A DNA stretch of 64,000 bases from Oscillospiraceae bacterium (GTDB lineage Bacteria > Bacillota > Clostridia > Oscillospirales > Oscillospiraceae), in assembly GCA_030625685.1 (NCBI GenBank), contig DAOUQJ010000003.1, positions 124,001 to 188,000 of the forward strand, written 5' to 3'. The notes under the pieces are model-generated. The model was not told where the DNA came from, did not search any database, and was given only the letters and a program-made list of their open reading frames with translations. This document shows positions 2,872 to 36,600 of the stretch, one piece after another. The position numbers were made by a program, and so were the translations under genes. Position 1 is the first letter of the stretch. Each line of letters starts with the position of its first letter.

Positions 2872-3753
2872 ATGAAACAAAAGATAGGCATATTTTTCTT
2901 TGTTGTGCTGTTGTGCCCAATATTATTTCAATGTTGTAATTCAAAGTCTTCAATGCAATGCAATTCTACTACAGAGTATACAAATGAAGTTATATTGGGT
3001 TATGGCAATTGGGCGGATTCTTCTGCTAGTTCGCATTTATTGAAAGCGGTCATAGAAAAATATTATAATGCTCCTGTGCGTTTAGAAGTGATGGATGCCA
3101 ATCAACTTTGGGAAAATGTCGCAAATGGAGAGATTGACTTTATGGCTTCGGCCTGGTTACCCAACACACAAAAAAATTATGCTAGGCAGTTCGCTGATTC
3201 GGTCGTGATTCTAGGTCCTTACTTCACGAATGCAAAAATCGGTTTAGTGGTGCCTTCTTATGTAAACATTGATACCATTTATGAATTGGAAACAGATGCA
3301 GAAAAGTTTGATTATCAAATTGTAGGAATAGACCCTGGCGCTGGAATTATGTACCGTACCATTACTGCGAAATCAGAATATAAGCTTAAAAATCTAACCC
3401 TAATTCAAGGCAGTGATTTAAAAATGACAAATGCTTTGGAAGACGCATATGAAGACGAAAAGTGGATTGTCGTAACAGGTTGGAATCCTCATTGGATATT
3501 TGACAAAATGGATTTAAAGTATCTAGAAGATCCCTTAGGGGTATTTGGCTCATCTGAACAAATCAATATCATAACACAACTACAATTTGCGAGCGAATAT
3601 CCAAAAATCAATAAATTTCTAGAAAATTTCCAATTGAATTCAGAGGAGTACCAATCTCTGATTAGAATGATGGAAGAATACGAAGACAAAAATGAAGCTG
3701 CAAACATTTGGATTGAGAAAAACAAAGATACTGTTGAAAGTTGGATTCGTTAA
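2872..3753 (+). CDS. Orphan glycine betaine-binding lipoprotein (OpuAC/GbuC-like)
   Basis: AAGGAG SD; lipoprotein-like N-terminus; EVILGYGNWADSSASSHLLKAVIEKYY, WLPNTQKNYARQFADSVVILGPYFTNAKIGLVVPSYVNID typical of OpuAC. Confidence 0.85.
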   Translation: MKQKIGIFFFVVLLCPILFQCCNSKSSMQCNSTTEYTNEVILGYGNWADSSASSHLLKAVIEKYYNAPVRLEVMDANQLWENVANGEIDFMASAWLPNTQKNYARQFADSVVILGPYFTNAKIGLVVPSYVNIDTIYELETDAEKFDYQIVGIDPGAGIMYRTITAKSEYKLKNLTLIQGSDLKMTNALEDAYEDEKWIVVTGWNPHWIFDKMDLKYLEDPLGVFGSSEQINIITQLQFASEYPKINKFLENFQLNSEEYQSLIRMMEEYEDKNEAANIWIEKNKDTVESWIR

Positions 3754-3765
3754 TAAAAATACAAA

Positions 3766-3806
3766 AACCTCCCTCACAGCAATGAGCCAAGAGGGAGGTT
3801 TATTAA
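3766..3806. terminator. Bidirectional intrinsic terminator between convergent genes
   Basis: Inverted repeat AAACCTCCCTC ... GAGGGAGGTTT. Confidence 0.8.
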
Positions 3807-3830
3807 ACCCATTATAATGCATTGTAACTA

Positions 3831-4061
3831 TTACACACAGTTGCACCAGCGTTGTTTTTTTGCGCACCAATGAAAATTATAACAACACCAATATTGTCGT
3901 CCTGGATACTTATTATAAACACAACAAATCCAACATCGTCTGCTTTTACAATAATAGTAACAATAACAGCATCGGAAACACGAGCCAATATTCCAGTAAT
4001 AGCAACAATAACAGAAGCACCTATCACTAGGACACCAATATCTTCGCCAACAACAGCGCAT
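3831..4061 (-). CDS. Small Cys/Tyr/Trp-rich protein of unknown function (76 aa; candidate spore-coat-like structural protein)
   Basis: Frame MRCCWRRYWCPSDRCFCYCCYYWNIGSCFRCCYCYYYCKSRRCWICCVYNKYPGRQYWCCYNFHWCAKKQRWCNCV; GGAAAGGAGGG SD 6-7 nt before ATG; terminator downstream; competing frames lack SD. Confidence 0.7.
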   Translation of the reverse strand: MRCCWRRYWCPSDRCFCYCCYYWNIGSCFRCCYCYYYCKSRRCWICCVYNKYPGRQYWCCYNFHWCAKKQRWCNCV

Positions 4062-4115
4062 AGTATACCCTCCTTTCCTGGATATGTATAGCTATGTCTG
4101 TCTTGTAGATAGTTT

Positions 4116-4146
4116 AGTATATGCTCTGAAACGGATTTAGTGTCAA
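4116..4146 (-). promoter_or_regulatory. Candidate promoter for the Cys-rich ORF
   Basis: Reverse strand TTGACA - 19 nt - TATACT, overlapping CATATACTA, which fits a sigma-K-like -10 (CATANNNTA). Confidence 0.4.
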
Positions 4147-7707: not shown

Positions 7708-8973
7708 TTATTTCAGTGTTACTATTGCATTCATACCAGGTCTAAATTGTTGCTTAGAATTATCCAACTGAATTTTCACTCCATAAGATATGATATCAAG
7801 CTTGCCATTTTGACTCGCTGCTTTTTTTACAGCAAAATCAGGATTTGCATTAATAGTTGTAATTTTTCCAGTAAACTCTTCATTTGTAAACGCTAAAAAT
7901 TCTAAATTACATTCATCCCCAAAGTTGAGTGTTCCAATTTCTGTCTCATCCACATTAATTTGTACCCAACAATCATTTAAATCTGAAACTGTGCCAATAC
8001 TCATACCTGTAGAAATTAGCTCACCTTCATCAACATACAAGCCGGTTACCACACCATCCATAGGCGCCGTTAATACCGTATCATTTAAATAGACTTCAAC
8101 TTCCATAAGTCCAGCTTTGGCTTGTTCTAATTGCCCTTCTGCAGCTACCAATCCCTCTTGAGCTTGATTGACTTGTAACATGGCAATATTGGCAGCATCA
8201 AGCGCTTGATTGAGTGTAGCTTGACTTGCAGTTACTCCAGCATTTGCAAGCGAAACTTGTGCGCTTGCTGCCATCTTATCCTCATATCTAGCACCTTCTA
8301 GTGCCATAGATAGCGTTTCATTTGCAACATTTTTCTGCGCTTCAATTTCTTCCAGTTTTTGAAGAGAAATCGCTCCACCATCGTATAAGATTTTTGCTCG
8401 TTCATATGTAGCATTCCACAAATCAGCAGCGCTTTGTGCCTGAATGACTTCTTGTTCTCTGGCTCCGTTGGTGGCCTTTTCATCCATTGCACTAGCCATA
8501 TTTTTTTGGCTTTGACTTGCCGCAACCCCTGCACGTGCTTGATTCACTCGTTCATTTGACAAATCGTAATTAGATTTCGCCATCTCAACAGTAAGTTTTG
8601 CAGCTTCAACTCCAGCTGTTGCTTGGGCAACTGTAGCTTCTATCTGCAACTTCTTTGCCTCTAACTCTTCGCTTGAAATCTTTACAAGCGCATCTCCTTT
8701 TTTTACACTCTGACCTTCCTCAACATAAAATTCCTCTATTTTACCTGGAATCTTGGTGTTTAAAGAGACTTCCTTAACACTTACAGTTCCCACTATACCA
8801 TTAGAAATCGATTGATTCCGATTGATATTCATAGATGAACGAATGATAAATACACTGGCAATCAATACAATGAGTGCAATTATTATGTAATTAATATGTT
8901 CTTTGAGAAATTGCTTTTTGTCAATTTCTTTCAATTTTTGTTCATAATCATTAAATTTCGTCTTCAGTCCCAT
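7708..8973 (-). CDS. HlyD-family secretion periplasmic adaptor / membrane fusion protein
   Basis: N-terminal TM, lipoyl half-motifs (GKIEEFYVEEGQSVKKGDALVKI; APMDGVVTGLYVDEGELIS), long coiled coil; start chosen at MGLKTKF with GGGAG SD, internal to listed ORF 7708..9033. Confidence 0.9.
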   Translation of the reverse strand: MGLKTKFNDYEQKLKEIDKKQFLKEHINYIIIALIVLIASVFIIRSSMNINRNQSISNGIVGTVSVKEVSLNTKIPGKIEEFYVEEGQSVKKGDALVKISSEELEAKKLQIEATVAQATAGVEAAKLTVEMAKSNYDLSNERVNQARAGVAASQSQKNMASAMDEKATNGAREQEVIQAQSAADLWNATYERAKILYDGGAISLQKLEEIEAQKNVANETLSMALEGARYEDKMAASAQVSLANAGVTASQATLNQALDAANIAMLQVNQAQEGLVAAEGQLEQAKAGLMEVEVYLNDTVLTAPMDGVVTGLYVDEGELISTGMSIGTVSDLNDCWVQINVDETEIGTLNFGDECNLEFLAFTNEEFTGKITTINANPDFAVKKAASQNGKLDIISYGVKIQLDNSKQQFRPGMNAIVTLK

Positions 8974-10576
8974 TATTGTCTCCCTGTTTCTCAAAATAGA
9001 GAATTTGATTTTCATTGAACATCGCTGCATCATTATAATATTTGCACTTTGCTAGCACATATTTATGGCGTATATTTTCTACATTGGTTTTAACCAAAGC
9101 TAGATTTTCTTCTGCTGCGATTAATTCCAATATAGTACCCGAACTAGATTCTAAATTTAAGTTCGCCAATAGTGCATTACTCGCTCCCATGCCTTGCTCA
9201 TATTTAAGCTGAGCAATCTTTACAACTTCCTCAGCTTCTTCAACAAGAAACTGTGTTGATATTAGCATGTCTGCTGTTGCCGTCATAAGTTCATACGATG
9301 TGTAAATTTCATTTCTTACCTTATCCTTGGTTTTGTTTAAATTTAGATTAGCTTGATCTAAAAGCAATTTCGCTTCATCTTTATTATAATCTTCTACATT
9401 ATGTGTTTTATTAACAAGACTGACATTGAGTTCGTTGATGGAAATAGCACCCAAACACTGCTGAATTTCTAAGCGCTTTAACAATCCGCTTTCTACAGAA
9501 GCATCTAAATCTTCTTCAGTTATTAGCCACTCATCCATATCAACTAAGTTAATTTTAGAAGTAATATCCATCCCCATATTTGTTTTGAGTGTATAAATTG
9601 CATTATTATAATCACTCTCAGCAAGTCTATATTCCGATTCAACTGAACTATAATAAATTTTCGCAAGCAAATAATCGTCTTTTGCCTTCATTCCATTTTC
9701 GTAAGATAATTTCACAATATCTAATTGCTTGGATGCTCGTTCGAAAGACTTCTCTTTCAATAGCATTAGATTTTGTTTATGTAATGCATCATAAAAATTA
9801 CTTCTAATCAGCATAGCGATTTGATTTTTATAGATATCACTTGCATAGCTTGTAACAAGAAAATTTACTTTTCCCATTCGTAACATCAGCGTTTCTATAC
9901 TGCTTGCTGATAACTCTATGTTTGATTTATATCCCAGTAGACTTTCTACTTCTCTAGAAGCATCTTTAATTACGCCGTTATATTCCGCTTCGCTAGCTTT
10001 TAATATACTTTCCCCTGCAATCAACTTTGCTTCGTTTTCCTCAATTTCTCTGGCGTTTTCATCGAGTTCATTTTGAATTTGTATCTTAATTTCTTTCGTT
10101 ATCTGTTTAGCAGCGTCTTCATCAGGCACTGCGGCAAAAACAATAGTGAATATATGATCACCCTGACTGATTTTAATACCATTGGCATTTAAATCAACAG
10201 GTGAATAGCCTGCATTTAATGCAGTTTGCGCCTCGGAAAGCTGTGATTTAGCAGCTTTTAACTTACTTTTGTTATCCCATAACAAGGTGTAAGCATCGTT
10301 TATATCTTTATCTGCTTCCGCAATTCGTTCGCCAACTTTTTTGGCATTTGTAACTGAAACTTCTGCAAGTAAAATTTGATTTTCTAAACTCATTAAATCA
10401 ATGTTATGAGAAAGGGCATATTCTATTGCATCCTCAACCGTTAAAGTCGTAATTTCTCCTGTTTCTAACTGTGAGTTTTCAACCTCATACGTAAAGGGTG
10501 TTTCGGCAGCCAACGAAATAATTCCTTGATTGCTTAAAAACAAACACACACAAATTATCATAATAAATTTTTTCAC
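8951..10576 (-). CDS. TolC-family outer-membrane-efflux-like protein
   Basis: GTG start after AGAGGTG SD; signal-peptide-like VKKFIMIICVCLFLSNQGIISLAA; TVEDAIEYALSHNIDL, KAKDDYLLAKIYYSSVESEYRLAESDYNNAIYTLKTNMG repeats. Confidence 0.82.
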   Translation of the reverse strand: MKKFIMIICVCLFLSNQGIISLAAETPFTYEVENSQLETGEITTLTVEDAIEYALSHNIDLMSLENQILLAEVSVTNAKKVGERIAEADKDINDAYTLLWDNKSKLKAAKSQLSEAQTALNAGYSPVDLNANGIKISQGDHIFTIVFAAVPDEDAAKQITKEIKIQIQNELDENAREIEENEAKLIAGESILKASEAEYNGVIKDASREVESLLGYKSNIELSASSIETLMLRMGKVNFLVTSYASDIYKNQIAMLIRSNFYDALHKQNLMLLKEKSFERASKQLDIVKLSYENGMKAKDDYLLAKIYYSSVESEYRLAESDYNNAIYTLKTNMGMDITSKINLVDMDEWLITEEDLDASVESGLLKRLEIQQCLGAISINELNVSLVNKTHNVEDYNKDEAKLLLDQANLNLNKTKDKVRNEIYTSYELMTATADMLISTQFLVEEAEEVVKIAQLKYEQGMGASNALLANLNLESSSGTILELIAAEENLALVKTNVENIRHKYVLAKCKYYNDAAMFNENQILYFEKQGDNNGTEDEI

Positions 10577-14484: not shown

Positions 14485-14820
14485 ATGGGATTATTCAATT
14501 TTGGTAAGAAAAAAGCTATAACTACATGCGCAAACGGATGTTTGGAATGCGCAAACGACCACAACTCAGATAATGCATCCATTTTAATTCTTGGGGGAGG
14601 TTGCAAAAAATGTGATGAGTTAGAAACCAACACAAAAACTGCACTCAAAAATCTTGGAATTGCCGAACCTGTAGGACATGTGAGAGATTTTAATAAAATT
14701 GCTGAATACGGAGTTATGTCAACACCTGCACTAGTAGTGGATGGTAAGGTTGTGAGTTTTGGCAAAGTCGTAAAACCAAATGAAATTGTTGAACTAATTA
14801 GAAAAGAAAAAAACATCTAA
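14485..14820 (+). CDS. Thioredoxin-like small redox protein (TM0996-type)
   Basis: ILILGGGCKKCDELETNTKTAL ... GVMSTPALVVDGKVVSFGKV. Confidence 0.85.
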   Translation: MGLFNFGKKKAITTCANGCLECANDHNSDNASILILGGGCKKCDELETNTKTALKNLGIAEPVGHVRDFNKIAEYGVMSTPALVVDGKVVSFGKVVKPNEIVELIRKEKNI

Positions 14821-33610: not shown

Positions 33611-36600
33611 TTATATTTTTTTCATACTATGATCTGAAAATATTTCAACTCCACAACTTGCTGTAAGAAACCATAATACTCGATGGGCTACATTTTTCTT
33701 CGTCATCTCTTCGAGTGCATAGGAATATGCATCCATTTGATCAAAATATGTTTTTGCAACCTCCAGCGCTTTTCCCTCAGATATATTGTTGCTTTTAAAA
33801 TCAAGTAGAACAATTTCATTGTTATATTCAAACCAACAATCAATGACACCTTGCAATAAAACAGACTCTTGCTTGTCTTCAATTTCATAATAGTTTGTTG
33901 CAGGTACTAGTACTGAAAACGGATACTCTCTATGAAGTGTTTCAGCGTTCTTCATTTGTATCCCTATTGATGAAGTGAAAAACTGTAATATATCGTGCGC
34001 GGAAATGACATCCATTTCTTCTCGTTTAATGAATCCACAATTTACAATTCGAACAATTTCTTCTTGAATTTCTTTAATATTATTTGTCTTAGACAAATCT
34101 ATTCTTTGAAATACTGAGTGATAAATATTACCTTTTTGGATTGCACTGATCTCTTTTTCGCTATTAAAGTTAGGTTTTTTAAATGCGATAAAATCAGAGG
34201 TACTGTCATCTTTCTTCATAGACATAATTTGTGTCGCAGTCAATTGTGCAGGTAAATGAGCCAATGCTTCATGTGGATATTTCCAAGTGAGAGTTTTCCA
34301 CAACTGCTCTAGTTCTGCTTGCTTATCATCCGCATTTTCATCAATGAAAGAACCTTCCGTGAAACTTGTTTCCACACTATCTCCATGATGATAAAACACT
34401 TTCCAAGGATATGGACTTACTTTTACATCTTGAAAGTCTTCAACATTGGCATACTTTCTTAATATTGCAGCTTCAGAACGTTTCAGCACAGATAGCAACA
34501 ACCATTGCCCCATATGATCGCTATGAAATAAGACATTGGGATCTATATGGTCTGAAAGAAACGCAGCTGTATTACATAGGGTGCTTTCTCCGTACGGAGG
34601 GAAATAGGTCATAATTAATTTTTCTTTTGCTCTCGTCATCGCTACATACAATAGGCGCATCTCTTCAGACAAAAGTTCGCGTCTTTGCTCAAGTGCCAAC
34701 GCTTTCCTAGGTAAAGTATCAAATTTAGTCATGGTATCGGAATCTATCGCTCGAATTCCTATTCCCCATTTATTGTGTACGATAACATCTTTTCTCAAAT
34801 CATCTACATTGAATTTTTTCTTCAAGTTTGTGAGAAATACAACAGGATACTCTAAACCTTTCGAGCGATGAATACTGAGAAGTTTGACACCGCCTGCATC
34901 TTGGGTGACTTGACGCGTGACTGCGCGATCATTTTCTTGTAATTTTCTCAGATGCACCAAAAACTGAAATAACCCTTGGTGCTTACTTTGCTCAAAGTAA
35001 CATGCCATTTCATAAAACGCGATTAGATTCTCTTCTCTCACTTTTGCATTTGATAAGTTCATAAATACTTCTATAGCATTCGTTTTCTCATAAAGCTTTG
35101 CAATAAGCTCGTGACAGTTGATTTCACCTGCTTCAAATCGGAGTTCTGCAAGTTCTTGCAAAAATATGTCACATTTTTGATCTACTTTGGCACGTTCCTT
35201 AAGTGCCAAATATAAATCATCTTTAGAAGCTAACCTTATTTTTGCAAGTTCCTCTGCAGTAAAGCCATACAGAGGAGATTGCAAAACGGAAACCAATGGT
35301 ACATCCTGCCTTGGATTGTCGATGATTTGCAAAAAAGAGAGAATAATTGATACTTCTGTGGTTTCCAAGATATCTTCTTGTGCATCCATCGTGCAAGGAA
35401 TAAATTGTTTTTTTAGTTCATTTAAATATATTGCGCTCACACTTTTAGGTGAACGCATCAATATTGCAATATCTTCTGCAATAATTGGTCTAGTCCCACC
35501 AGCACCATCTGATACATAAAAAGGTTCTTGTAGTAGTTTAGCAATTTCTTTGGCAACAAATCTCGCTTCTAAGGTATCTTTACTTACTCTAAGTCCAAAG
35601 TCATCCTCATTTGCATCAATTACATTGAGGACATGAAATTCTGTCTCATAATTCTCACCGTCTGGATAGCTAGCGCCTGGATATAATGCTTCCTCAGCTG
35701 TATAATTAAGCTCACCCAATTGCTCAGACATAATGTCATAAAATACTTCATTGGTTGCAGCCAATATTTGAGGACGTGAGCGAAAGTTTTGTGAAAGCAG
35801 AATTTTTCTATCCTCTCCAACTTTCGCTGTTTTATAAGATTGGAAACGATGATATTTTTCTAAGAAAATAGTGGGGTCAGCAAGTCGAAATCGATAAATT
35901 GACTGTTTGACATCTCCTACAAAAAACAAGTTTTTCTCGTCATCTGATAAAGCCGATACAATAATATTTTGCACCAAGTTTGTATCTTGATATTCATCAA
36001 CCATAATTTCATGAAATCGCGAGCCAATTTGATGAGCGATTTTCGTTTTTTCTCCATCTTGGTCAACAAACATCGTGACTGCTTCATGTTCTACATCAGA
36101 AAAATCTAAAAAACCTCGTTTGCGTTTCACTTCTTGATATCGGGTTGAAAAAGCATCCACTAAATCAAGTAAAGCAATCATAACTGGTTTTGTTTCTTTA
36201 ATATTATCCAAAACAATGGTGTTCTCAGCCATGAAATCAATTGCTATTTTGCCTATCTGTTTTTTACAATTATCTCTAATAGTTTTCACGGTTTCTTTCA
36301 AAGCATCATTCTCACAATTTTTGACTGCTTTGAGTCTTGGAAATTCAACTGCTATGGCTTCTGACATATGAGACCAATCTTCATCACATGCTTTGTTTAA
36401 TCTTTCAAGGTCAGAAAGTGTCTTAACTAGGCTTTTACTATACACATATAATTGCGCATCAAGCTGCACTTGCTCCAATATATCACTCAATTCATTCATC
36501 CAATACGTAGAAATTTGAGCAACATAGTTCATGATGATTTTTCCCCACAAAGTTTCACCTGCATCAGAAAATTGCCCTATTAGTAATTCTTCTTTTTGAT

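Follow-up and report, generated by a model that had tools for sequence, protein, structure and literature searches.

The window analysed here is a stretch of 64,000 nucleotides from an Oscillospiraceae bacterium (contig DAOUQJ010000003.1), and it carries on its reverse strand a short open reading frame (ORF) whose predicted product is dominated by cysteine and aromatic residues. The following features were located at this ORF and in its close surroundings, all on the reverse strand:

3831-4061, reverse strand: ORF for a 76-aa Cys/Tyr/Trp/Arg-rich protein (MRCCWRRYWCP...), from translation, with a third-position excess of differences relative to paralogue P2
4068-4078, reverse strand: Shine-Dalgarno sequence (SD) GGAAAGGAGGG, read from the sequence, 6 nt before the ATG
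4059-4101, reverse strand: conserved leader hairpin element, from an RNA model match
4096-4086 (CAUAG-c-UAUAC) and 4068-4059 (GUAUA-CUAUG, including the start codon), reverse strand: arms of the leader helix in the predicted fold
4116-4141, reverse strand: sigma-K-type promoter with -35 AC at 4141-4140, a 16-nt spacer and -10 CATATACT at 4123-4116, its motif arrangement conserved among leaders
3765-3801, reverse strand: terminator-like hairpin followed by U residues, common to this ORF and the convergent gene 2872-3753 (fold -23.6 kcal/mol, z -4.5)

Translation of 3831-4061 reproduced exactly the ORF and the residue counts given by a sequence-only reading of this DNA, namely 20 Cys, 12 Tyr and 7 Trp in 76 residues. 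When the 550 open segments of at least 40 codons within the window were ranked by their combined fraction of Cys, Trp and Tyr, the 86-codon open segment of this ORF came first with 0.48, and the runner-up reached 0.33. Among 5000 dinucleotide shuffles of the ORF DNA, 23 were still open, with a maximum of 18 such residues, and none yielded an open frame with the observed 39. The ORF is very probably not a product of chance and represents a real gene. The terminator that had been claimed downstream is present as a strong hairpin with U residues at 3801-3765, although it is missing from the list produced by a strict terminator scan, and it also faces the convergent gene 2872-3753.

When the same genome and its relatives were searched at the DNA level, the leader and N-terminus turned up once more on the same contig, and a pattern search placed the leader ahead of three more genes of this genome (P2, P3 and P4). 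This leader was also detected ahead of genes v1, v2 and v3 in another species of the genus, [Clostridium] viride DSM 6836, and ahead of a LysM gene, truncated by the contig end, in a third genome (G014). The predicted products are as follows:

P2, own genome: 19 aa, MRCCCRRWWCPRRRRWCYC
P3, own genome: 52 aa, MRCYCRICWCPRRCRWYCCCYYWCPRRCRWYCYCYYWCPRRCCWRRCSWPRG, with WCPRRCRW-type repeats
P4, own genome: 102 aa, Cys/Asn/Gly-rich
v1, C. viride: MCGACCRTRCRWCWCPCRCCWMCCCWCPHRCCWVCR
v2, C. viride: MCCFCGIIQCLFGCCNRCNHCNRCNACNRCRR
v3, C. viride: 62 aa, C-terminal end CNRCRCCCCGCCNRCR

A WCP core is common to the window protein, P2, P3 and v1, and the spacing of Cys residues is not kept between paralogues. 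The upstream regions of P2 and P3 (G000:C12, about 14650-14751 and 35450-35549) resemble each other well past the leader and so point to a recent duplication, and P3 contains internal tandem repeats of its coding unit. From these comparisons, the window gene is one of an undescribed, dispersed set whose products are unlike each other, nearly always Cys-rich, and preceded by one common leader (the leader set). Searches of Pfam, NCBIfam and PDB gave no match for the window protein or its relatives, nor did any named-family match place them with CdeC/CdeM, CsxA or ExsY/CotY/CotZ, and a literature search for Cys-rich spore proteins of Oscillospiraceae found none described. The earlier statement that no named family could be assigned was correct, and an undescribed gene set was found instead. 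Database models miss the genes of this set because they are so short and compositionally biased.

Short Cys-rich ORFs would also be expected of RiPP precursors, that is, ribosomally made and modified peptides. The copies are, however, dispersed single genes, and the neighbours that were read (betaine transport, an MBL-fold hydrolase, a prophage remnant and GNAT) include no modification enzyme, and with no match in NCBIfam either, a RiPP precursor is hardly to be expected here. The prophage remnant lies directly upstream of P3 (L054, G000:C12:25000-44000; 8792-10421) and comprises HNH, a Terminase_4 small subunit and broken large-terminase-like pieces. As the window protein found no match in phage and viral collections, this remnant is not evidence of phage origin.

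The Cys frame is overlapped by a hydrophobic Val/Ile/Ala/Gly frame (MIGASVIVAITGILARVSDAV..., window 3812-4027, reverse strand) that likewise stays open, both in the window and in the paralogues, and one might suppose that the Cys frame is the shadow of this frame, or that the true product is a frameshifted remnant. Over 18 codons, the window gene and P2 differ at 4, 3 and 11 sites in Cys-frame positions 1, 2 and 3, respectively, and when these differences were pooled with those among the internal repeats of P3, 14 of 23 fell at position 3 (p = 0.006). Comparison of v3 with its G014 orthologue gave 5, 3 and 16 differences (p = 0.0009), corresponding to 12 synonymous and 7 non-synonymous codons. 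The third-position excess is absent in some pairs, as seen for the window gene and P3, a less similar pair (4, 7 and 11 differences), and for P2 and P3 (1, 4 and 3). In every leader gene, SD and ATG serve the Cys frame, and P2, v1 and v2 are short Cys-frame ORFs that close before terminator-like hairpins. Because it is the third codon positions of the Cys frame, and not those of the Val/Ile/Ala/Gly frame, that take most of the substitutions, the hydrophobic frame was ruled out as the product, and a shadow origin of the Cys frame seems scarcely credible. We conclude from the aligned sequences that the Cys frame is the coding one and that the hydrophobic frame is a by-product of TGY, TAY, CGN and TGG codons. 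Homologues were thus found among both paralogues and orthologues, and it is the Cys frame that they preserve.

The sequence-only reading had mentioned a promoter-like sequence upstream of the gene; the element that is conserved in relatives can be specified as sigma-K-like, AC-N16-CATATACT, at 4141-4116. In seven of the eight leaders first collected, AC-N16/17-CATAnnnT is found with its -10 at 57-65 nt before the ATG, in keeping with the 16-18 nt spacing of AC and CATAnnnT and the fixed place expected of a sigma-K-dependent gene, and base shuffles never produced this arrangement in more than two of eight. The same motif stands at 60-64 nt in three later finds from the genus, which had been detected by RNA structure alone. 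Sigma-K promoters of C. difficile likewise have AC at -35 and a CATA-type -10 (PMC3789822), whereas in the leader genes such a promoter comes together with a conserved hairpin leader. A sigma-70 promoter was rejected, with 7 sites in the region versus 4.4 expected, and CATAtccTA beside the SD was dropped as a -10 box because AC-N16/17-CATAnnnT was found 57-65 nt upstream. The own genome has a single intact copy of a sigK-type gene, scoring slightly below the family cut-off (G000 C28:67983). We infer that the leader genes are transcribed by sigma-K late in the mother cell. In C. viride (G006), the sigK-type gene is in two halves about 10.7 kb apart (C2:426548-426859 and C2:437555-437908), resembling a skin-like element inserted in sigK, and half-matches to sigK also occur in G013 and G014.

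Downstream of the promoter, the leaders share the consensus CAUAG-n-AUAC...GGAGG-GUAU-n-CUAUG. Folding of the 5' UTRs indicates that CAUAG-n-AUAC pairs with GUAU-n-CUAUG, with the start codon inside the helix, and shows a possible pairing of UCC with the SD. For the window leader a fold of -11.5 kcal/mol was predicted with a probability of 0.99 that the AUG is paired; when the upstream part was shuffled 1000 times, only 4 of the shuffled versions paired as well. The SD described earlier as strong does exist 6 nt before the ATG, but with both SD and ATG predicted to lie hidden within the conserved hairpin, this label is misleading. Across ten leaders, every one of the 90 helix 1 cells is paired; of the nine pairs of this helix, five vary, in each case to G-U and never on both sides. 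P2 alone among the folded leaders favours an alternative hairpin, CAUAGGAU-ACAU-AUCCUAUG (L089, 1506-1525), which would free the start codon, suggesting that its leader has two competing folds and may switch between them. Judging from the predicted folds, the start-codon hairpin probably delays or meters translation.

Hairpins in 5' UTRs that sequester SD or start codon occur in RNA thermometers and in type I toxin mRNAs, whose stems contain the AUG and part of the SD as does the leader hairpin. The window gene might accordingly be taken for a type I toxin gene, encoding a small cationic peptide from an mRNA that hides its SD and start codon, as the start codon is occluded in the predicted fold, several copies exist, and one of them, P3, adjoins the degraded terminase region. 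Unlike in those systems, the leader hairpin is shared by dispersed, Cys-rich genes of sporulation type, and no Rfam match was obtained at 4059-4101 up to an E of 5. The same leader drives 100-aa-class Cys/Asn/Gly-rich proteins as well as a LysM protein, the promoter is of sigma-K type, and searches with the window protein gave no match in PADLOC or PHROG, all of which makes a toxin very unlikely. Both the toxin and the RiPP readings fit less well than a product at the spore surface.

In order to search for the leader by structure, a first covariance model was built from six leaders, the window copy being left out. The window leader was recovered with 37.9 bits and an E of about 2.3e-6, and at its paired ATG begins the Cys-rich ORF; the v1 leader was recovered with 37.5 bits without training on v1. 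Three new copies were obtained in this way, two in G014, ahead of the v3 orthologue and of MGCLGSGSCFSNSTCNSCNN..., and one in the own genome ahead of MGCCGNWCNACCPRRSYNPCYCC..., the last being weak by score (E 0.2). The further genes found by the covariance model are nearly all Cys-rich. A match in G004 (L092), which has an ordinary lipoprotein-like gene downstream, was left out of the count.

A second model, applied to 401 genomes of the family, detected two strong copies in G197, which belongs to another genus, with 48.7 and 42.5 bits, and weaker matches in G197, G187 and G194. Copies in G197 stand ahead of MCNNCDRDNDRDRD...CFRRCFRCCRNRCNRRCNRCC, MCNNDFDDFDW...RRCFRRCFRRCLRRC and MCDRNNNF...FRCCRNRCNRCCNRRCF, and the copy in G187 ahead of MFCRCCCRCWRCGWVWNGRCWRCCCGPVCR. 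By score alone the G187 and G194 matches are weak (0.002-0.012 per genome over 401 genomes); in G187 the arms (CAUAAGGUAU/GUACCUUAUG) and in G194 those of a 14-bp stem differ on both sides with pairing kept. In an alignment widened by the G197, G187, G194 and weak own-genome copies, which was fitted to the structure and contains one antisense row, three pairs have both-sided changes and the covariation score exceeds those of all 500 shuffles. The G194 hairpin (L112, about 1512-1539) is nearly perfect and extends over both SD and start codon of an ORF of 209 aa that has no Pfam match; its architecture is like that of the leader hairpin, its sequence is different, and the product is not Cys-rich. 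In its exact form, the leader is present in 3 of 16 genomes of the genus, several of the 16 being incomplete, and a window-type protein is credible only in the own genome and C. viride among the 401 family genomes. Matches to the leader pattern in other genera have ordinary genes downstream, and weak protein-profile matches there (E 0.005-0.04) are unrelated readings or broken by stops; both were rejected.

The ORF, its translated frame, the paralogues and relatives, the shared leader and its pairing potential were established at the level of sequence, and the reading of protein function builds on composition, promoter type and analogy. With moderate confidence, we interpret the window gene as a late mother-cell (sigma-K) gene for a Cys-rich coat or exosporium mini-protein with hairpin-gated translation. 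Sigma-K would transcribe the monocistronic gene late in the mother cell, the 5'-UTR hairpin, which spans the start codon together with part of the SD, would delay or meter translation, and the very small product would enter the spore coat or exosporium, where cross-linking of its many Cys residues by disulfides is plausible and Arg and aromatic residues would help packing. That the window protein is located at the spore surface we infer by analogy. The coat or crust component proposed by the sequence-only reading gains indirect support from the sigma-K-type promoter, from the leader shared with other Cys-rich coat-like genes, and from a CotJB gene within the window at about 40919, whereas the dityrosine cross-linking proposed with it is unsupported because the relatives that carry this leader in C. 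viride (v1, v2 and v3) have zero Tyr and use Trp, Arg and Asn instead. The many CC and CxC pairs and the very small size of the protein would also suit a metal-binding or redox-buffering, metallothionein-like peptide without a structural role. We consider this unlikely, as no metallothionein family profile matched, Cys spacing varies between paralogues, the leader set looks sporulation-specific, and the heavy Arg/Trp/Tyr content better suits a packed or cross-linked layer.

Cys-rich proteins form part of the armour of many spores. In the cited sections of one study, CdeC and CdeM are Cys-rich, repeat-bearing, lineage-specific exosporium proteins of C. difficile for which disulfide cross-linking is proposed, the CdeM repeats being CNCCNCCRK (PMC6101409); the leader set resembles them in these traits, with disulfide cross-linking as a prediction. 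CdeC and CdeM have 405 and 161 aa and ~9% Cys, compared with 19-118 aa and 12-44% Cys in the leader set; there is no sequence-family match between them, and those sections do not report a start-codon hairpin such as that predicted for the leader set (PMC6101409). CsxA of Clostridium sporogenes and ExsY/CotY of Bacillus are unrelated Cys-rich proteins proposed to build disulfide-linked protective spore layers, a principle that the leader-set proteins may have in common with them (PMC7333573), but they are ordered lattice proteins, while the leader-set proteins are far shorter, with no homology found between the two. The leader set is best read as analogous to, and not homologous with, CdeC, CdeM, CsxA and ExsY.

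The shared leader provides a handle to find Cys-rich genes without protein similarity, and the idea that late coat synthesis is timed translationally by an RNA hairpin, on top of the sigma-factor cascade, is now testable. We advance only tentatively, and with some doubt, the wider proposal that the leader represents a new class of cis-acting RNA switch, in which self-assembling, Cys-rich spore proteins of a sigma-K regulon present in several Oscillospiraceae genera would have their translation held by a shared start-codon-occluding hairpin until a late cue. If so, the cue might be redox state, temperature, a protein or a small RNA, and synthesis of the cross-linkers would wait until the spore surface is ready. 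Convergent with v3 in C. viride (L003 1893-2441, reverse strand) lies a gene for a 170-182 aa Cys-rich, repeat-like protein without a Pfam match (MSCNYQSFCCSNRNQCGCLCNN...), possibly another spore-surface protein.
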